Positions 3,627 through 15,454 of a stretch of DNA of 25,532 nucleotides are shown one piece after another. The DNA is from a virus. The DNA lies in IMG/VR virus record IMGVR_UViG_3300029787_005091, positions 1 through 25,532 of that record. One strand, 5' to 3'. A program made the translations under genes and the position numbers. A model generated the notes under the pieces. It was not told the origin of the DNA. It ran no database searches and saw only the letters and a program-made list of their open reading frames with translations. Every line of letters starts with the position of its first letter. Position 1 is the stretch's first letter.

Positions 3627-6600
3627 CTATTCCTCGTCATCTTTACTGAGGAATTCTCCCACGGACGAATTCTTCCATATATCTTTCGCTAGATTCTTAT
3701 AATCTTGAGCGCCGGCACTGCTCTCACCGAAAAGGACGGGTAGTGTCTCCCCCGTGAAGATACCACCAACGGAGCCGAAGTCGATCTTGAAGTCATCCCC
3801 TCGGGCCGCTTGCTCAAGATCAGCTTGTACCTCACCAACTTCTGCAACAGCCTTATCATAAAGATATTCTTTGGTTGGCACCGGAAGCGCAGGATTTGAT
3901 TCTGGCTTTATGTTTCCGTATCCCATATCTCCCCCCAGATCTACATCAGGCAAAAGCTTGTTCCCCTTGAATTCAACTCCCTCATGTAAAGCAGTGATAT
4001 CGACGTCGAACCCTCCGGGAGTGACTTTAGAATTAACGGAAGTTATCATGTAATAACCATGAAGCCCTAGATAATCTAAATATTCTCTGCTTGCCCCCAT
4101 CAAAGACGGGTTAATGTAAATATACATTCCGTTTTTATATAACGTATTTCCCACCAAGCTAATGTTTGCTGAATAAAGTTCTCGTAGCTGCTCAGCGCCC
4201 AGGGCACCTTCCTTTTGAATTCTTGATTCTCGCAAATATGCTTGATCTTCTCGGGAAAAGTTTAATGTCTTTACAAGCCCACAGGCAGACCCAAGATAAT
4301 GGTGATAAATACCTTTATTTAGATCCTTTACATAGTTGCCATCCAAGTCTTTTGGGTGCGAATCTGTTGGATACAGAATTAACCCCAAATCTGATAGTAG
4401 AACGTTATCGTCACAAGTTAAAGCTGCTTTCGCTTTACCTAGCTCTGTTGCTGGGTAAGTATTGTTTGCCACAAATCTAGGTGTATCGATGGTATTCTTA
4501 GTTAGTGTTAACGGCTGTGCGTCAAATCTCTGTTGAAAGCTAAATTCTTTACCGAAACACTTAGATGATAACGCTTTGGTAATCAGTTCTTTGCAAACAT
4601 CTTTTACAAAATAAAGAAAAAAGTAATTATCTTTGTCTCTTTTCACGACATTGTTCTTAAACCAAAGCTGGAATGCATCAAGCGATATTGGAATATCGCC
4701 TATATTCATCGTTCTATAAATTCCGTTTATTTCATTGTTATCAGTTGGTGTTTCTTTTGTAATCGCATCAATCACAAGCACATCTTTAAGGTCATACCCG
4801 CACCTAATAAGATCGTCCAAGTTTTTTACCTTAAAAGCTTGCAATGGGTCTATCATTTCTACATCTGAAATAAAAAACTGAAAGTTTAACGGGCGCTGTC
4901 CATCAAAGGCGGCGCCGCCATTGTTAATCTTAATTTGCTCCAAGATATTATCAAACAAATCTCCCAAAAAGAAGAAAGGAATATTAATTTTTTGGTGATT
5001 TGTTAATTCATCAAATCTTTTGTTTTCTTGTGTGCTATAAGCTTTAGCAAGATCTTTCGAATTTATCGCAGCATTCTTGTTTATCTCGTCTAGTATAACG
5101 GTATTGACAACAAGAGGTGAAAAATCAATTTTTCCTTGGTCTGACAATCTACGCTTAACTCTTTTTTGTCTTTCTGTGGGAGTTAGTTCATCATAATTCG
5201 GCAATCTTAATTCATTCGGATTAATGGAAATATTATAGATTGTTCTAGAATCATAAAGTCTTTTTAATAATTTTTTGTATTTAACGTTTCTGTCTATGTT
5301 TTTGAGCTGTTTAATTTCCTCTAGTGCTTCCTTTTTTACTTTCTCATCGCTGTCGGATTGTTCCCCTTCGCTAACTGCTTCTATCTTGTTTTCCTCTCTT
5401 TCAATATCTAGTTGAATTAATTTTGAAGAAACATCAAAAATGTTGGAAGTTTTTCCTGTAAGCAAGCCGGCCAAGCTAGCCTGATATTGAACTGACAGCT
5501 CCAAGCTTCCATTTTGAGCAAAGTTAATTTGATGGTTCGTCATCTGCAAAAATAAAGAAATTTTTGATTCTTCGATCGCATCTATTAATCGGGATGCTTT
5601 ATCAGCATTGCCGACCAGTGCAGTAATAGCTGCCTTTGGAGGTGTTGACCATCCAGCGCAAATCTTTACTCTATAATTGTTGCCCTGATAATCCCGATGC
5701 AAGTTAGAACGAAGAATATCGTCTGTGCAAGGTTTCTGGCTGTTTTTGTTGTCTTTTTTGCTCTTTCCTTTTTGAAGCTTTCTTACTCCGGGCGAATTGA
5801 TAATTAAGTCAAGAAAATTAGGCTCATCTTGACCAGCAGATCTAGCACCATTAAAGAAATCATTGACAGACTGAAAATACATCACCAAATTAGCAGATAT
5901 GTTGTTATCAACCTCAGCCGGCTGCACACCGTCCAAAGACCAGCTAAAAGATTTAATCCCGGCGCCGGGGGCTCGTCCAGTTGAGCCGTCCAAAATATCG
6001 CTAATATCGTCCTGAGTTAGAAAGCTTGGTATCTTAAGATCTTTTACGACCGGCTTTCCATTTTCCGTCTTTATATCGCCTTTATCATCATATTCAATTC
6101 TTGATATTTTAATGTATGGTGTCAAGAGACTGTATACATCTGGGCATATATTTAGGTATTCATCAATATATGCAGACCTTCCGCCGTGTTCAATTGTGTT
6201 TATAACGTTGCCCGGGTCGCCTTGGTTTGTAACTTTTGTCACGTTCCGATACAGTGTTTTGTATGGACCATCTTCCTGCCTTTTGTCGACAAATTGGGAG
6301 ATGTTTTCAAGTAGAAAGCATTGAAAATCAAAAGGAGTAAGTTTAGGCTTTTCATCTACTACCTTAACAATATCGCCATTGCTTCCCTCCGCTGACGCTG
6401 GAAGTAGGGCATCATTAACTTCATTTTGCGCTTGTGCCGCGGCAAGGTCGCCTTTTAGTTGCTCAATGACTTCTTTTACTAGCTTGCCAACGTGACCTTT
6501 TCTTGCAAGCAATTCCTCTGGACCATATATCTCTCTGACTAGGCTCTTTACTTTATCTAATATGTCCCGGGTATAATCAAACCTTTTTTCATTAGGGTTG

Positions 6601-7233: not shown

Positions 7234-7572
7234 TTACCTATCAAAATACCTTAAGACCTCTTGAAGTGGCAAAGGAATAAAAACCAGATCTCCGACATTG
7301 AGATCTGCCTCAGTAGGCTTTTGGTTAAACATGGCAATAACCCACCAATATCTCGGGCTATTGTAATATTGAATGGAAAGTTTAAAATAACGATCCCCAG
7401 TTTTCCAAACATGACGAACCCTAGTTAGATTCCTAATCTCTTCGGGGTCGGGATAGTTCATTTCCGGGGTCGCATAATGACGAACGTATTTTATATCTCT
7501 TGCATCAAAAAGAGAATCGTACAACCCATTATCGTTGGTAAAGATCAATCGCTTATCGTATCTATCAGGCAT
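7234..7572 (-). CDS. LysM-type baseplate wedge protein, gp53-like
   Basis: A 112-aa protein. The second half has the LysM-like pattern seen in T4 gp53 and P2 gpX-type tail proteins: HVWKTGDRYFKLSIQYYNSP, then RYWWVIAMFNQKPT and LNVGDLVFIPLPLQEVL (about residues 54-108). T4 gp53 joins wedges around the hub of the baseplate; the LysM fold there serves protein assembly rather than cell-wall hydrolysis. It lies between the tube-initiator-like gene (4-nt gap) and the 1199-aa baseplate candidate (7-nt gap), which fits a baseplate role. A small LysM protein of the P2 gpX kind is the alternative. Confidence 0.75.
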   Translation of the reverse strand: MPDRYDKRLIFTNDNGLYDSLFDARDIKYVRHYATPEMNYPDPEEIRNLTRVRHVWKTGDRYFKLSIQYYNSPRYWWVIAMFNQKPTEADLNVGDLVFIPLPLQEVLRYFDR

Positions 7573-8501: not shown

Positions 8502-10484
8502 CTACCCGTTCGAGAATGGGCTGAACGCTCCCTTCCCTCTAGGACTATCTATAGCTTTAACTATAATATCCTCAATTTTTTCTTCACCGATATAAACGGC
8601 GACCTGCTGTGGTCCCCCGCCACCAGATGTAAATTCTTTCAACGTATCAACAAGTGATTTGAAGTCTTCTTTGGAAATAACCTCGGACCCTTGACCGCCA
8701 GTTAAAAGAATCTCTCCCGGGTGGACAATCGCTTGTTTGGTCGTTACGGTACCTCCCTCTTGGAACGCTGGAGTTATTTCTCCGGTTTCCAATCCTTGCC
8801 CAAGCAGACCAATTCCGCCTCCAACCGCGCCCCCGACCGCCAAGCCGCCAGCAGCGATCATGCCGAGCTTTGGAATCAGCGCCAAGGAGAAACCACCTGT
8901 GAATGGTGCTGCAGCAATGGCAGCAGCGACTCCTGCTACTGCTAGTAATGAGCCCAAAGTCGCTGCTGCTTTTGTCGCCTGACTCATACCGTTGGTCATC
9001 TTACCGAAACCTTGAGCTACTGATCTGATTATGTTCATCAGCGGTATGAAAATAGTATCTATTAACGGTCTCAAATCAACAGCCAGTCCCATAAATGCTG
9101 ATTTTAGCTGCTGTGCCATTTCTGCTGACTGCGCAGCCAGCTCCTGCAACTCTTTCTGATTCATGGCATCTAGAGCGTATTGTTCTTCAGACATATTGAA
9201 AAGCCTTTGTGCTTCTTCAACAGAGGTTCCCATGGCAGCCGCGATTGCCTGCTGCTCAAAACGGTTTAAAGCGTTAAACTGAATGCCGGCAGCGTCTGTT
9301 GAGCGACGTAGAATTTCAATTCTTTCTTCCTCGGACGCGTTAAGCATATCAATAGAGTTAAGATATGGACCACCCAAAATAGCATTTAAACGACCAACGG
9401 CTTTTCCAGCAGAATCAAACTGATCAAACTGACCCGCTATTTTTAGCAACTGGCTCATTTCCAAACCAGAGTTCTTCGCCTGGACAGCCAGACCCTTAAA
9501 CACTTCTGTTGCATCTGTACCATACTTTGCCAACGCTCCGAACGATCCTTCAAAATCTGCTGCTAATTTATTTAATGGTACTTCTAAAGCTGTCGCGGTG
9601 CCTGCTAAATCTAATAATAGGTCGCGACTTTGAGCGGCACTCATACCAGTCGCCCTAATGGTCTTATCTAAAATACTCGCTGTTACCCCGGCATCGATGC
9701 CGATTTCTTGCAAGAGCGCAGTTGTATCTTCTAGCGCAGCCCTAGTGCTTGGAGCCATTTGCGTAAAGGTAGAAAATTGCGAGTATAAAGCCTCGACTGC
9801 CTTACCGGCTTCCTCAGCCGTAACGCCAAAAGCAAAATTTCTTCTTTCTAATTGAGTTATATCTACATTATACTTAGCGGTAGCTCCGGTTGATTTTCTA
9901 AAACTAGAGATAACCTTATCTTGTGCTTTTGCAAGTTCGACAGTTTGATCAACAAACTTTTCCATTCCCGACATGAGGATTCTGGAGGCAATATTGCCCA
10001 GGACATTCGAAAAGCTGCCGCCGGTTTCCTTAAGGGTCTTAAAGCCCTGACCTAATTGGGTTGCCTTATCAGACATTCCACCGGTGGCTCTGCTAAGTCC
10101 CAGAGTTTTTTCTATCTGAGCGGTGAGCCCTTCCTCTGCGGCTTCTTGATTTTTTAACCTTTGTTTTTCTTCCGCTTCTCTTTTTTCCCGGTCTCTTTCT
10201 CTTTGATCGGCAGCCTTTTTTTCTGCTCTGGTTCTTTTTTCCAGAGCAGCAGTTTCTTCTTTTAAGGAATCAATTCTTTGTTGCTGAAGAGCTTGCAGAG
10301 TTTGAACTGCTTCGGTCTGTCTGGATATCTCTTCAGTAAAAGCCCTATATTCAGTTGTTCCAGCCGAATATTCCTCTCTCTGGATCTTTAGAAGCTCAAT
10401 TTTATCTCGCGCAGCTTGCAGGTCTGCTTGTCTTTGTTTCGCGAGTTCTTGAAGTTGTTTAATTTCTTCTTCAGTTGTTGCCAT
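8502..10484 (-). CDS. Tape measure protein
   Basis: A 660-aa protein that sets tail length and threads the tail lumen. Seen: a charged coiled-coil N-terminus (about 1-120, Glu/Gln/Arg/Lys-rich heptads), a helical middle, a long Ala/Gly/Leu hydrophobic stretch (about 506-564, for example GLAVGGAVGGGIGLLGQG) that could insert in membrane at DNA ejection, and a C-terminal EGGTVTTKQAIVHPGEILLT segment (about 576-595). The GG-x-hPGE pattern is common near the end of tape measures. At about 0.15 nm per residue, 660 residues predict a tail near 100 nm (inference). Position between the chaperone/123-aa genes and the tube-initiator gene is canonical. T4 gp29 is similar in length at 590 aa. Confidence 0.92.
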   Translation of the reverse strand: MATTEEEIKQLQELAKQRQADLQAARDKIELLKIQREEYSAGTTEYRAFTEEISRQTEAVQTLQALQQQRIDSLKEETAALEKRTRAEKKAADQRERDREKREAEEKQRLKNQEAAEEGLTAQIEKTLGLSRATGGMSDKATQLGQGFKTLKETGGSFSNVLGNIASRILMSGMEKFVDQTVELAKAQDKVISSFRKSTGATAKYNVDITQLERRNFAFGVTAEEAGKAVEALYSQFSTFTQMAPSTRAALEDTTALLQEIGIDAGVTASILDKTIRATGMSAAQSRDLLLDLAGTATALEVPLNKLAADFEGSFGALAKYGTDATEVFKGLAVQAKNSGLEMSQLLKIAGQFDQFDSAGKAVGRLNAILGGPYLNSIDMLNASEEERIEILRRSTDAAGIQFNALNRFEQQAIAAAMGTSVEEAQRLFNMSEEQYALDAMNQKELQELAAQSAEMAQQLKSAFMGLAVDLRPLIDTIFIPLMNIIRSVAQGFGKMTNGMSQATKAAATLGSLLAVAGVAAAIAAAPFTGGFSLALIPKLGMIAAGGLAVGGAVGGGIGLLGQGLETGEITPAFQEGGTVTTKQAIVHPGEILLTGGQGSEVISKEDFKSLVDTLKEFTSGGGGPQQVAVYIGEEKIEDIIVKAIDSPRGKGAFSPFSNG

Positions 10485-10497
10485 TATCTAGATTCCA

Positions 10498-10869
10498 TTA
10501 GTTTTTAAATGGCCATTTAAGACCGGTCTCATACTCAAATGTACGGACAGACTTATCTAACTCATATTTTGACACCATGGTCGAGGGATCATCTAGTCCA
10601 TTTTTGATATAAGAGTCCATATATCTTTTTTCTCTGTTAAGGGCTGTGAAAAATGCTGATATCTGAGATGGAGACCCTTTGACACTAAGATTGGGTCCGC
10701 CGCGAGAAGCATTGCTGCCCTTCATCATTCCGCTGGAGCCATATATATCAACGTTACTATAACCCAAACTTCGAAGAAGATAAGCTACATTATGTGCAAA
10801 GTCGTTATATCCACTGTAAATTTCATTTAAATCTTTGTTAGTTAAATCAATAACAATTTTATCGGTCAT
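10498..10869 (-). CDS. Unrecognised small protein preceding the tape measure, 123 aa
   Basis: No family recognised. Soluble, mixed alpha/beta composition, with a Gly/Ser-rich centre (YGSSGMMKGSNASRGGPNL, about 43-61) and a basic/aromatic C-terminus ending GLKWPFKN. It is the first gene after the 10893-10900 promoter-like motif and the terminator at 10911-10935. It starts at ATG 10869 behind GAGGGA, and its stop is 13 nt before the tape measure start. The place between chaperone and tape measure suggests a tape-measure partner or assembly factor, but nothing in the sequence proves this. Confidence 0.7.
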   Translation of the reverse strand: MTDKIVIDLTNKDLNEIYSGYNDFAHNVAYLLRSLGYSNVDIYGSSGMMKGSNASRGGPNLSVKGSPSQISAFFTALNREKRYMDSYIKNGLDDPSTMVSKYELDKSVRTFEYETGLKWPFKN

Positions 10870-10910: not shown

Positions 10911-10935
10911 AAAAGCCGCAGTTATCTACCGCGGC
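10911..10935 (-). terminator. Rho-independent terminator after the chaperone unit
   Basis: On the coding strand GCCGC (10935-10931) pairs with GCGGC (10919-10915), followed by TTTTG. The stop codon of the frameshift extension (TAA, 10924-10922) sits in the 11-nt loop. The stem is short (5 G-C pairs), so termination may be partial. It separates the sheath/tube/chaperone unit from the tape measure unit. Confidence 0.55.
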
Positions 10936-11107
10936 CAGCTTTTCTAATTTCTTCATTGTGTTTTTCAAACTCTTTTACTAATCTTTCCAAGAACCATCGA
11001 CGCAATGGAATGGGAAGATTGTATAGCTCTGTGAATGACCAGCCACCGTGGTGCTTTAGAGTGAAAAACTCTTCGTATACAGCTTCTTGATATTTAGCGC
11101 CTAGGCC
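10922..11107 (-). CDS. Frameshift extension of the tail/hub assembly chaperone, no start codon of its own
   Basis: In the +1 frame relative to the upstream gp26-like gene, 61 sense codons run to TAA at 10924-10922. Residues include EAVYEEFFTLKHHGGWSFTE and LYNLPIPLRRWFLERLVKEF, ending KAGRGR. The pattern (FF-x-L-x-H-x-G-G-W-S-F, LPIPLRRWF) looks like conserved coding sequence, not noise. The frame opens only after a TGA at 11125-11123. Between there and the LPIP segment there is no ATG, GTG or TTG; the only TTG lies inside that segment and has no ribosome site. The segment is therefore best explained as a +1 (or -2) frameshift product fused to residue 275 of the upstream protein, giving 336 aa. 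The tube-to-tape-measure position is exactly where phages of many kinds use frameshifted tail chaperones. A sequencing indel in the 7-T run is the alternative. Confidence 0.7.
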   Translation of the reverse strand, partial: GLGAKYQEAVYEEFFTLKHHGGWSFTELYNLPIPLRRWFLERLVKEFEKHNEEIRKAGRGR

Positions 11108-11933
11108 AAAAAAATTCTGCCGTCATCGGCATGCCCACCTCTCCCCTATGAGAGCAATTCGAACACTCAAAATCAAATGTCATGTTAATATCTGGCTTTA
11201 CCTTATCATACTCTTCACGCAAAAATCTGGCGTCTACAAGAGGAAGAATCTCTGCCAGTCTGTCCAACTGTTGCTTGTTCGTCACACCGTTTGCGGAAAC
11301 TATAATAGACGACAGTAATAAAGTGCCAAAGTTTTCTAACTGCTTCTTTTTTCTTCTAGCTTCAACTGTCTTTGTAATATTACTCTCGTCTTTTGAAGTA
11401 AGCAACTTGAAAACAATCTCTATACCTGTTGAAGGAAGTTTTACTTTATATCCTCCTTCTGTGGCTTCAGAAACACTGTCAGCTGATTCGCTAAAGCCTA
11501 AATCACTTAAATTAACTGTTACTTCATTCTGCTCAGCACAAGCAGGACAAGCTATATCAACTTCATAAAATGGACCAAATCCAGTAATTCTAGATGCTAT
11601 CAGCACAGCATTCTTATCACCAACCAAAAGTGTATCTGGATTTATTGACTTATCAGCAATAACAGAACGAACAAGACGATCAATAGCAAGACCTTGCTTA
11701 AGCAGAGTCTCTGACGTCAAAATATCCTCTTCTTTTGCTGTCATATGTTTAATTTCAATGACAGTCTGGTTGTGAAGTGGGTGGTCTTCTGGATAAAACA
11801 AACCTTTGCTCGGTAACTCAACAAATTCTGTTGGGTTTACAAAAGAGAAAAGGTCTGTTGCTTCTGATGTGGGGGGTGCGGGCGCGTCTGGTTGCGGTGC
11901 GCCGAGCCGCTCTAAATTATTTCTTCGTGACAA
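11094..11933 (-). CDS. Tail/baseplate-hub assembly chaperone, T4 gp26-like
   Basis: A 279-aa protein. Seen: FVELPSKGLFYPEDHPLHN (37-55), an EIKHMTAKEEDIL segment (60-72), a helical middle, and two CxxC pairs (C129-PA-C132, C257-SN-C260) that could bind one zinc. This matches the T4 gp26 / 'T4 baseplate' family, which is needed for hub assembly. The start is TTG at 11933, chosen because GAGGTG lies 6 nt upstream and no ATG fits. The normal-frame end is TAEFFWPRR-stop; the codons TTT TTT TGG just before it make a 7-T slippery run leading into a downstream frame (see 10922-11107). Short and long forms would then be made, as for lambda gpG/gpGT. The gene follows the tube gene by 19 nt and precedes the tape measure region. 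Confidence 0.72.
   Translation of the reverse strand: MSRRNNLERLGAPQPDAPAPPTSEATDLFSFVNPTEFVELPSKGLFYPEDHPLHNQTVIEIKHMTAKEEDILTSETLLKQGLAIDRLVRSVIADKSINPDTLLVGDKNAVLIASRITGFGPFYEVDIACPACAEQNEVTVNLSDLGFSESADSVSEATEGGYKVKLPSTGIEIVFKLLTSKDESNITKTVEARRKKKQLENFGTLLLSSIIVSANGVTNKQQLDRLAEILPLVDARFLREEYDKVKPDINMTFDFECSNCSHRGEVGMPMTAEFFWPRR
11106..11114 (-). other. Candidate +1 programmed frameshift site, TTT TTT TGG
   Basis: In the normal frame the codons are GAA TTT TTT TGG CCT AGG CGC TAA. The run of seven T (11114-11108) lets tRNA-Phe slip forward one base from TTT to TTT with full pairing, after which GGC CTA GGC GCT AAA is read. A -2 slip would reach the same frame. The normal stop is only four codons downstream. 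Efficiency cannot be judged from sequence. Confidence 0.55.
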
Positions 11934-11952
11934 AAATCACCTCGTTTCTATA

Positions 11953-12528
11953 CTATAATGCTGTCACAGCCGCTACTGCAGGACCAGACTCATACTCAGC
12001 CCAATCATAGCGGAAAGTCATTTCAATATTAAGTAAACCATCATCCTCGTAAGATAAATCACCAAACGTTGCGGTTGTAATGAATGCGTTATTGAGTGTC
12101 CAAGTACCAATAAGACCGCCCTGTCCGTTCAACTCTTCAAAGATGACGTTACCAAGGGCATCAACAGCACCCTGCTTGTTAACAGTGCCTGGAGCGACTG
12201 CTGGGTTAAAGAAGACATCCTCCTGAACATCAGGCTTTAGATATCCAGACTTCGTAAGTGCATCATAAAGAATCTTGTTGCCATCTGGGTTGATAGCATT
12301 AACAATTGTAGCGTTAACTGTGTTCCACTCAACTGATCCTGGGTAATAGTACGTGTTACCCAAGAACTTGTGAGGGGTGTCAGATATCGTGTATGACGGC
12401 TTTGTAACCGCCTTGGCGAGATACTGCTCGTACCTAAACGCAGCGTTAAGGTCGGTTAAGTTTGGTAGTGTGAGCAAAAAGCGGTGTGATCTTCTTGGCT
12501 CTGATAATGCTGATGTCCAAAATGGCAT
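11953..12528 (-). CDS. Tail tube protein, gp19-like
   Basis: A 191-aa inner tail tube subunit. Seen: SHRFLLTLPNL near the N-terminus (about 14-24), KAVTKPSYTISDTPHKFLG (about 39-57), HKFLGNTYYYPGSVEWNTV with a following NATIVNAINPDG, and a C-terminal FITTATFGDLSYEDDGLLNI with EMTFRYDWAEYE. This matches gp19-type tubes, in which the W-N-T-V strand and the final 'I-x-M-T-F-R-Y-D' strand form the hexameric beta barrel. Length is normal (T4 gp19 is 163 aa). It starts with ATG behind AGGAGA, directly after the sheath gene and its hairpin, the usual sheath-tube order. It is likely among the most abundant virion proteins. Confidence 0.9.
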   Translation of the reverse strand: MPFWTSALSEPRRSHRFLLTLPNLTDLNAAFRYEQYLAKAVTKPSYTISDTPHKFLGNTYYYPGSVEWNTVNATIVNAINPDGNKILYDALTKSGYLKPDVQEDVFFNPAVAPGTVNKQGAVDALGNVIFEELNGQGGLIGTWTLNNAFITTATFGDLSYEDDGLLNIEMTFRYDWAEYESGPAVAAVTAL

Positions 12529-12592: not shown

Positions 12593-15454
12593 TTAATCGT
12601 CAAACGATGCTCCTGTTCTTGTGATGTTGAAGTCAATCGCAATGAACTCAATTGCTCGCGTTGGCTTCAAGAAGATCTTCGCATATAGAATGTTTCTATC
12701 GACAAGATCAGGGGTTGTGGTTGTGTCATCAAGAACAACTCTGTAATCGGATAGACCAAAGTTTGTCTTAACATCAGCCAAGAATGGGTTAACCTGTGCT
12801 GTGAATCGCTTCCAAGTCTGCTGTACGTTTGGATCAAAGAGCAAGCCAGAGGCAATCTGGGAAATGCGCTTCTTAACAAAGATCATTAGACGTCGAACGT
12901 TAATGCGATCCAGCGCTGAAGGGGTAACCTGTAGGGTCTTCTGACCGAAGATTACAATGCCCTCTGCTGGGAACTTAGCGATTGGGTTAATGTTCGCAGC
13001 GTAGAGGTCATCACGATCCTTTCGGCGTAGCTGGTGAGCAACATCAACAACTGGGATACCCGCAGAGCCTTCTGTGAGTCCACCGCGGTTGAAACCAGCT
13101 GGCGCGAACCAAACCTGTGTTCTACGCTGTGAGCTAGAGAATGTTCCAATAGCTGCGACAGAAGGTGGCAACCATACGAACTGACCGTTGATGGTGTCTC
13201 GTGCTCTAACCCATGGGTAGTACGCTGCACCGTAAGAGGAGTTTAGATTCCTGGATCGAAGTCCATTAACCAATGTAGTAATTGTTGACTGCGTGTTGAG
13301 GCGCTGGAGTTCGGATCCATCTTCTCTTGGCTGGAAAGCATCCGGAAGATCGATAACTGCTAGAGCATCTGCGCGTTCCTCACAAGTTCTAACAAGATGT
13401 GTTGTGAGTCCTTCCTGGGTCTGCGCAGGAATAGCGGCTAGGTTCATTTCAACAACCTCAGGATCCGAGATAGAATCAATAGCTCTTCTAATCGAGAAGA
13501 AAGAGTAACTAGTCGAGTCAGATGGAGTCCCAGGCATTCTTGTTGCTGAGAATGGATCCATCTCCTTGATATCTACACCATCAAATCCACCGAAAAGAGG
13601 AACTGTAAATCTATCGTAACCCTGGTCAAGGACTCCTGAAACCGCACCGTTCTGGGCAGTTAGAGATGTTTCAGTTCCCGAATCACCTGAGCCGACAACA
13701 TGTACACCTGATCCTGAAATATCATCCAGCGTGAAGGTTGGCGACAGTTCTGTATCAGTCTCACTGGCAGTGAAATCCCCCACAATGCCACCGCGGGGTC
13801 GAAGCAAGTCTATAGTAGATTTTGCGAAAACCGTCGAGCTTGCAGAGCGACCGGCTTGGAAGCCGAAGTATGCATCGGTTGGATTTGCTAAGTTACCATC
13901 AGAGGCGCTAACACGTAGCACGGGCTCCGGGAAGGTTAAGGTAGTCAAAAGCGTCAGGGCGTTTGTAGATGTAACAGACCCGGATGTAATGAAAATACTT
14001 CCTGTTGTATAGGCTCCGGCCCCGATAGCTGCCGGGAGAGCAATTCCTGATCCTGAAACCCAGCTACTCTCGGCGCGGGCGGAACCGCCTGCTCCGGTGC
14101 CTGCCACAGCTGTAAGATCCTGATACTTTGTAATACCCTTGAATCCGAAAGGAAGCAGCGAAGGATTTGTATTACCTGCATCTACATCAGAGTTAACAGA
14201 AACATAAATATACTGAGAGTTGTTGGGGTAGTTTCCTTCCTGAATGTATCTTCTTTCCGTCGTGTCCCATGTTTCTCTGTAATCACCGATCTTTCGCGCG
14301 ATGTAATTAAGGGAGTTCGGGTTTAGGTTACAGTTGTTAAACTGCTCTACGACGCGGACAACGTTATCGCTGTCACTGAGGTGTCTAACAACAACAGAGA
14401 ATGTGCCGTACTCGTCCTCATCGTTGGTTGATCTCTTAATATCCTGAATAGAGACCTTAAGGTTCTTGTTGGTCCAATCACCGGGCTCACCACGAGCGAT
14501 AAACTGAAATAGGTCTGTGGCTGTTGCGGAAGGCGAAAGCTTGCAGCTAACAATCTGAGGTGTTCTCGCTGCTTGTAGAACATATGAAAAGTCATCTCCC
14601 TGGGTAGTGCCGTTCTTAATCCTGATAAATGCAGCCGCAATTGAAGAGCTGTCATCAGTTAGAACTTCGTCTAAGTGACGATCAAATGTTTCACCCAAGA
14701 AATAATCTTTTCTGTTATTAGTAGTGGTGATGGCATCCGTGAGAAGCTGTGGGTTTGTGTTGAAAACTTTTCTGATGTATCGTGAATCGTTTCGGTTAAA
14801 ATTAAAAGTAAGTTGATCCGTCGAGGTACCGGCGGCTTGATTACCAATAACAGCCTTAAACTCCTTTGCAGTGGAGTCAGAGGATATAACAACAATGTCT
14901 GAGCCTGTTAGGGCTGCAGCGCTGTCAGTGCCGCTAGTGAATCCTGTTCCTGTGCCCTGAAGTATGGCACCAGAAAGCTGCAACTCAACATTATCTTTTG
15001 TATAAAAAATGGCTCCCAACGCTCCAGTTAAAACGTTGTTGCTGCCAGTTTGGAAAAGAACAAGTCCGTAAGCACGGTTGTTAGTGCCGGCTGTCCAGCC
15101 AGCTTCTGCAGGCTGACCGGAGGCGCTGTCGTCTTCAGCACCGAGTAAACGAATATAAGTTAAGGGAGAACTATTGCGAAGATAAGCTTGCGCGGCATAC
15201 ATTCCGTATGTTGTGGCGGTTGTGTTGGCGCCCTGTCTCCATACATCATCGCCGGAGTTTCCTGGACTTGGGGTGCCGAAAACACTAACAAACTCCTCAA
15301 AAGAGTTTACTGTTATTGGTCTAAGTCCTGGACCTTTTTCAGCGCGACCAATGATAACTGGTCCAATGCCTGCTGGCGAAGCAGGGAGCTGTGAGTTATC
15401 AATTTCGTTGACAAAAACGCCGGGTGATACAAATCGGTAATTCTTAACTGACAT
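12593..15454 (-). CDS. Contractile tail sheath protein, gp18-like, enlarged
   Basis: A 953-aa sheath subunit that contracts to drive the tube through the envelope. Seen: the classic N-terminus VSPGVFVNEIDNS (9-21) and GPVIIGRAEKGPG (31-43), and the conserved C-terminal core: PWVRARDTINGQFVWLPPSV (about 715-735), VWFAPAGFNRGG, NPIAKFPAEGIVIFGQKTL, INVRRLMIFVKKRI and KIFLKPTRAIEFIAIDFNIT near the end. T4 gp18 is 659 aa, so about 300 extra residues are present. They fall in the middle (about 80-640), rich in Ser, Thr, Gly and Ala, consistent with surface-exposed protrusion domains. It starts with ATG behind TAGGAGA, 37-54 nt downstream of two tandem promoter-like motifs. Confidence 0.95.
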   Translation of the reverse strand: MSVKNYRFVSPGVFVNEIDNSQLPASPAGIGPVIIGRAEKGPGLRPITVNSFEEFVSVFGTPSPGNSGDDVWRQGANTTATTYGMYAAQAYLRNSSPLTYIRLLGAEDDSASGQPAEAGWTAGTNNRAYGLVLFQTGSNNVLTGALGAIFYTKDNVELQLSGAILQGTGTGFTSGTDSAAALTGSDIVVISSDSTAKEFKAVIGNQAAGTSTDQLTFNFNRNDSRYIRKVFNTNPQLLTDAITTTNNRKDYFLGETFDRHLDEVLTDDSSSIAAAFIRIKNGTTQGDDFSYVLQAARTPQIVSCKLSPSATATDLFQFIARGEPGDWTNKNLKVSIQDIKRSTNDEDEYGTFSVVVRHLSDSDNVVRVVEQFNNCNLNPNSLNYIARKIGDYRETWDTTERRYIQEGNYPNNSQYIYVSVNSDVDAGNTNPSLLPFGFKGITKYQDLTAVAGTGAGGSARAESSWVSGSGIALPAAIGAGAYTTGSIFITSGSVTSTNALTLLTTLTFPEPVLRVSASDGNLANPTDAYFGFQAGRSASSTVFAKSTIDLLRPRGGIVGDFTASETDTELSPTFTLDDISGSGVHVVGSGDSGTETSLTAQNGAVSGVLDQGYDRFTVPLFGGFDGVDIKEMDPFSATRMPGTPSDSTSYSFFSIRRAIDSISDPEVVEMNLAAIPAQTQEGLTTHLVRTCEERADALAVIDLPDAFQPREDGSELQRLNTQSTITTLVNGLRSRNLNSSYGAAYYPWVRARDTINGQFVWLPPSVAAIGTFSSSQRRTQVWFAPAGFNRGGLTEGSAGIPVVDVAHQLRRKDRDDLYAANINPIAKFPAEGIVIFGQKTLQVTPSALDRINVRRLMIFVKKRISQIASGLLFDPNVQQTWKRFTAQVNPFLADVKTNFGLSDYRVVLDDTTTTPDLVDRNILYAKIFLKPTRAIEFIAIDFNITRTGASFDD

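Follow-up and report, generated by a model that had tools for sequence, protein, structure and literature searches.

Gene organisation of the locus

The window, by which we mean the whole stretch of DNA that was analysed, is a 25.5-kb linear virus sequence from IMG/VR (25,532 nt). Its minus strand carries an ORF of the T4 gp26 type that is followed by an open extension in the +1 frame. This ORF lies downstream of a tail tube gene and upstream of what is probably the tape-measure gene. The features of the locus are listed below.

11094..11933, minus strand: short form (0 frame), 279 aa, T4 gp26-type (Pfam T4_baseplate), proposed TAC-N
10922..11933, minus strand: long form (0 frame joined to +1 frame), 336 aa, predicted by reading one base forward
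10922..11110, minus strand: +1-frame extension; 62 codons, counted from the second codon of the slip site, followed by TAA; would form the C-terminal part of the proposed TAC-NC
11103..11114, minus strand: frameshift site TTT TTT TGG CCT (0-frame codons), predicted from conservation
11115..11123, minus strand: possible stimulator ACGGCAGAA, adjoining the slip site on its 5' side; weak pairing of the anti-Shine-Dalgarno type, suggestive only
11938..11943, minus strand: Shine-Dalgarno sequence GAGGTG preceding the TTG start of the short form; AGGTGA-like element in relatives
11953..12528, minus strand: tail tube gene, directly upstream of the short form; phrog_4542 tail tube protein, E 2.4e-19
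12593..15454, minus strand: gene for a 953-aa tail sheath; matches phrog_23 (tail sheath) at E 7.9e-70 and Pfam Phage_sheath_1C at E 8.8e-9
8502..10484, minus strand: probable tape-measure gene, 660 aa, judged by position, size and coiled-coil-like N-terminus
10498..10869, minus strand: ORF of 123 aa, located between the tape-measure-like gene and the extension

The tube gene adjoins the proposed chaperone gene, and the gene downstream that probably encodes the tape measure (8502..10484, 660 aa) gave no significant family match in Pfam or PHROGs searches, nor did the 123-aa ORF at 10498-10869 match any family in these databases. In the Flavobacterium phage immuto and in LIS04, an annotated tape-measure gene is located just downstream of the corresponding locus. 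The 496-position PHROG profile is matched end to end by the 953-aa tail sheath, which implies large insertions in the latter. A small LysM-like protein encoded at 7234-7572 matched the baseplate wedge family phrog_7145 (E 6.7e-9).

The short form begins at a TTG codon and its 0-frame end reads GAA TTT TTT TGG CCT AGG CGC TAA, the seven T being located at 11114..11108 of the minus strand. A TGA occurs in the +1 frame 11 nt before the T run. From just 5' of the run this frame is open down to a TAA at 10924-10922, and it carries in the extension the sequences FFTLKHHGGWSF and LPIPLRRWF. No ATG, GTG or TTG was found in the +1 frame of this record ahead of the conserved motif, TTG codons occurring only within the conserved domain. 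The initial annotation had described a start-less +1 extension behind a gp26-type ORF, with a short form of 279 aa and a long form of 336 aa; the former is borne out by the ORFs, the frames and the 249 related loci described below, and the two lengths were reproduced by translation of the joined frames. Of 32 representative relatives, nearly all have a strong AGGTGA-like Shine-Dalgarno element ahead of the short-form start. The start codon in these 32 is TTG or GTG, not ATG.

Conservation of the +1 extension

Relatives were collected with the short form alone, a query that is blind to the extension. From the 336 relatives that it yielded, 80 were retained. More loci were obtained from searches with immuto and the Microcystis phage Mel-JY01 and from a search of bacterial genomes, and scans with the LR756508, SP-15 and CM1 proteins brought zero or one further locus. 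An extension was detectable in 249 of the 261 loci with the short-form domain; of the remaining 12, several are truncated where their contig stops and the others are very distant. In all loci holding both parts (249/249), the extension lies in the +1 frame, which agrees with the direction initially proposed, and the arrangement is kept at short-form identities down to about 28%. None of the 249 loci has a fused frame and none has the extension in the -1 frame.

Since homopolymer runs are the usual place for sequencing errors, the split of the frames could in principle reflect such an error, or a recent indel, in what is truly a single-frame gene. The initial annotation had named relatives with one fused frame as the sign of it. 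However, no such relative was found among the 249 loci, which come from independent contigs and include the isolates Mel-JY01 and immuto, and the frames are the same at sites without a homopolymer. The comparison refutes this explanation.

The 0-frame stop is located 1-8 codons past the CCT codon, usually 2, and the ending of the short form is itself conserved among the 249 loci. In 22 loci the last +1 stop lies directly 5' of the site. Together, these upstream +1 stops and the 0-frame stop within 1-8 codons after CCT confine the slip to a short stretch.

As an estimate of the selection acting on both frames, single changes among 57 distinct close-clade sequences were divided into non-synonymous and synonymous ones, with a correction for opportunity. 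The ratio of the former to the latter came to 0.154 for frame 0 ahead of the site and to 0.048 for frame +1 past it, against 0.93 to 3.0 in the other frames, and the +1 frame was free of stops within 150 nt in all 57 sequences. The low ratios in frame 0 upstream and in frame +1 downstream place the switch of frame at the site. Given this purifying selection, which changes frame at the site, and the +1 position of the extension in 249/249 loci, the open +1 extension is far beyond chance.

The extension might also be a separate small gene expressed by reinitiation or translational coupling, perhaps from a non-standard start. Some genomes, such as Mel-JY01, have it annotated as a gene of its own, and distant relatives carry an ORF with an overlapping start, as in LR756511 (TAATG) and in the annotated gene of PBECO4. 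However, an independent start, which the initial annotation had singled out as evidence against a frameshift, is not conserved in the +1 frame: 79 of the 249 loci have no ATG, GTG or TTG until 20 codons past the site. Furthermore, constraint on the +1 frame is already seen from the slip site onward, before the 0-frame stop is reached, and a separate gene leaves unexplained the wobble conservation of the YTT_Y motif presented below. We therefore consider a separate gene improbable and a +1 shift between the two frames the preferred reading.

The predicted slip site

The sequences at the junction of the 249 loci, given as 0-frame codons, were the following.

TTT TTT TGG CCT: 198/249 loci
TTT CTT TGG CCT: 35/249 loci
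TTT CTA TGG CCT: 4/249 loci
CTT TTT TGG CCT: 3/249 loci
TTT TTT TAC CCT: 3/249 loci
TTT TTT TGG TCT: 2/249 loci
TTT TTT TTC CCT: 2/249 loci
TTT CTT TAC CCT: 1/249 loci
TTT CTA TTC CCT: 1/249 loci

The first codon of the site is YTT followed by Y in every locus (249/249), i.e. a slip codon whose tRNA could re-pair one base 3'. In 41 loci with TTTCTTT or TTTCTAT, the longest T run is three, and the frames and the extension are the same; in three further loci the run is five. Because the run lengths vary in this way, the invariant of the site is YTT_Y rather than the seven-T run, and a homopolymer is not needed. The initial annotation had taken the seven-T run as the site and had suggested its conservation as a check. 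The run is indeed present in this record and in most relatives, but it is not invariant, being replaced in the 41 loci by TTT CTT or TTT CTA.

These loci also bear on slippage during transcription, in which the RNA polymerase would omit a U from the seven-U run, so that a shorter mRNA would encode the long form. The seven T of this record and of most relatives would suit such an event, whereas the 41 loci without a T run above three keep both the frames and the extension; transcriptional slippage thus has a low probability. A ribosomal shift of -2 would lead to the same frame as a +1 shift and would also keep its pairing on the seven-U run. It would, however, lose this pairing at TTT CTT TGG and TTT CTA TGG, where a +1 slip at the first codon keeps it, and is therefore very improbable.

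Within the site, the codon on which a +1 slip would occur is most likely the first TTT (11114-11112). Its wobble base is T in all 91 clusters at 80% identity, and grouping at 60% identity leaves 28 clusters, again without exception. By comparison, 22.5% of the Phe codons in these genes are TTC, although the loci are related and a formal probability would be unsafe. The +1 peptide that would follow a slip at this codon reads F/Y, then G/T/S, then L in the 249 loci, all of these changes being conservative. The conservation of YTT_Y suggests that tRNA-Phe slips forward, leaving UUU to pair with UUU or UUC. Slippage at the second codon would fit all sites except the five with CTA, so that the first codon is favoured without being proven. 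CCT was set aside as a slip codon, as re-pairing would be poor.

Possible stimulators

The pairing of the sequence just upstream of the site with the 3' end of the 16S rRNA was stronger than synonymous codons would predict, with an excess of 1.77 +/- 0.24 kcal/mol for the close clade and of 0.69 +/- 0.19 kcal/mol for the other relatives. An upstream anti-Shine-Dalgarno pairing that might act as a stimulator is suggested by these values, the effect being weak and the sequences related. No signal of downstream RNA structure was detected (mean z of -0.4 and -0.1). The codon that would be waiting during a slip at the first codon is TTT, CTT or CTA, none of which is obviously slow.

Identity of the short form and of the extension

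The short form matched PF12322 (T4_baseplate) with an E-value of 7.8e-16 and 58.9 bits, compared to a cut-off of 24.5, over positions 12-219 of the 219 of the profile, and phrog_150 (baseplate hub) with an E-value of 1.6e-19. The short form and the extension were modelled separately rather than as the fused long form, and the AlphaFold2 model of the short form had a mean pLDDT of 87. Its best fold matches among solved structures in VIA-align were 3fgx (Z 6.3, rmsd 4.5 A, 88 residues), 3klu (Z 5.8, rmsd 3.2 A, 78 residues) and 2ob9 (Z 5.6, rmsd 6.4 A, 88 residues), unrelated rows having Z of 3.2 and below; the matches at Z 5.6-6.3 are modest and restricted to the N-terminal half of the model. 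All three structures are phage tail assembly chaperones, which were also the best matches of another chaperone, with Z of 4.4-4.5 (PMC9603447). The three top rows share a single functional class, and the modelled fold, taken with the gene order, supports the assignment of the short form to the G/GT kind of tail assembly chaperones.

The extension is predicted to form two helices and has a weak match to DUF6760 (E 0.0018). A fold search with the extension alone gave no match below E 0.5.

Junctions in other named phages

The junctions of several named phages were read by eye as single cases, without statistics. The junction of Mel-JY01 is the same as the site of this record, and that of immuto is TTT CTT TGG CCT. 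A +1 extension with an available TTT_Y was found in SP-15 (TTT TTT CAC), LIS04 (TTT TTT AGT), the Streptococcus phage GXN1 (TTC TTT CGT (C)) and the Streptomyces phage BRock (TTT CGC). The GXN1 junction holds UUU_CGU, the type of slip site of influenza PA-X.

Other arrangements were also seen. In the Stenotrophomonas phage CM1 (around 4720-4990 of the sequence examined), the extension is apparently in the -1 frame, after AGT TTT TTT ATC, which is a possible -1 slippery site; judging from CM1, the direction of the shift may differ within the family. In the sequences examined of LR756511 (near 4769) and PBECO4 (near 4705), a separate ORF is present whose ATG overlaps the stop (TAATG). The annotations of immuto and SP-15 contain only hypothetical genes of 36 and 39 aa, respectively, near the extension, the long form being missing, and in that of Mel-JY01 the extension is a separate hypothetical CDS.

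Proposed mechanism and significance

It is very probable that the locus contains one gp26-type chaperone gene from which a +1 ribosomal slip yields a short and a long form with roles like those of lambda G and GT. The two products with a shared N-terminus are predicted from the coding capacity conserved in 249/249 loci; slippage on the ribosome, its codon and rate, and the roles of both forms are inferred. Most ribosomes would be halted at the 0-frame TAA and release the 279-aa short form. A fraction of them would slip one base forward with tRNA-Phe on the first UUU (UUU_U or UUU_C) or, in a few relatives, at CUU_U with tRNA-Leu re-pairing from CUU to UUU, and would continue in the +1 frame, adding some 60 residues to give the long form of 336 aa. 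If lambda gpG and gpGT are a guide, the tape measure protein would be covered by many copies of the short form and tail tube subunits would be recruited by a few copies of the long form, both forms being absent from the virion.

The carriers of this arrangement are a large and mostly uncultured group of contractile-tailed phages, in whose current annotations the long forms are missing or split (immuto, SP-15, Mel-JY01). The site would be a compact natural +1 site, conserved with no stop codon in the waiting position, which would allow its stimulators to be dissected.

Comparison with T4 and other known systems

Frameshifting of tail assembly chaperones, rare +1 cases of it and short and long chaperone genes in T4-like phages are already known. 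In the open-licence papers searched, no description was found of +1 frameshifting in the T4 gp26 family across many phages. A 2016 review names T4 as the exception among long-tailed phages, in which frameshifting of the chaperone is otherwise conserved (PMC5009743). Some T4-like phages use a short and a longer gene instead of frameshifting (Vladimirov et al. 2022, as cited in PMC10885494). The link to the general tail chaperones that was initially drawn is upheld by the fold and the gene order, but its conceptual T4 side had already been published.

The short form belongs to the same Pfam family, T4_baseplate, as T4 gp26 and gp51. In T4 these proteins are encoded by two separate, divergently transcribed genes, whereas the locus described here has one gene with a predicted +1 frameshift. 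T4 gp26 (208 aa) consists of the T4_baseplate domain alone, and gp51 (249 aa) of this domain (1-201) and a C-terminal tail, as would be expected of a short and a long chaperone. This architecture suggests that the extension may be homologous to the C-terminal tail of gp51, but sequence comparison did not support it. The matches of the extension to phrog_634 were weak (E 0.15 for this record and E 0.018 for one relative), and in a profile comparison of the extension with the gp51 tail, 31 of 100 column shuffles scored as high.

The presence of a conserved predicted frameshift elsewhere in T4's own chaperone family makes the history of the two-gene solution of T4 testable. Tentatively, and with somewhat less than even chances, the +1 shift at a bare UUU_Y may be ancestral in the gp26-type chaperone family, T4 genes 26 and 51 being a derived replacement, and would be shared by marine and freshwater phages and perhaps by Gram-positive ones (SP-15, LIS04, Streptococcus phage GXN1). 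If so, it would be among the most widespread programmed +1 frameshifts of phages, with nearly all of its occurrences unannotated.

Lambda gpG/gpGT occupies the position between tube and tape measure, as the gene described here probably does, and comprises a short form and a long form extended by frameshifting (Xu, Hendrix and Duda), as predicted here, but the lambda shift is -1 at GGGAAAG and the one proposed here is +1 at YTT_Y. No sequence similarity was found between the lambda gpG/gpGT proteins and those of this locus, the only likeness being the fold match to HK97 gp13. Phage Adele and its group (Vandenendeviridae/Andersonviridae) likewise have a conserved T-rich site that ends the short form and an extension that is open in all genomes, but their shift is -1 at GTTTTT (PMC12846349), in contrast to the +1 shift proposed here. 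The contractile-tailed HSTV-2 very likely also uses a +1 shift at the G-T position (PMC5009743); unlike the clade studied here, it is a single virus, a haloarchaeal myovirus with an archaeal host. In SPP1, a +1 shift likewise occurs near the end of the frame, giving gp17.1 and gp17.1*, but at CCC_U and in the tube protein itself, the SPP1 chaperone being subject to a -1 shift (PMC6316719). Outside the tail genes, influenza PA-X and bacterial prfB resemble the shift proposed for the present locus in their +1 slippage near the end of the frame, in different genes and with different functions. The slip sites of PA-X (UUU_C) and prfB (CUU_U) allow a re-pairing of the same kind as that proposed here.
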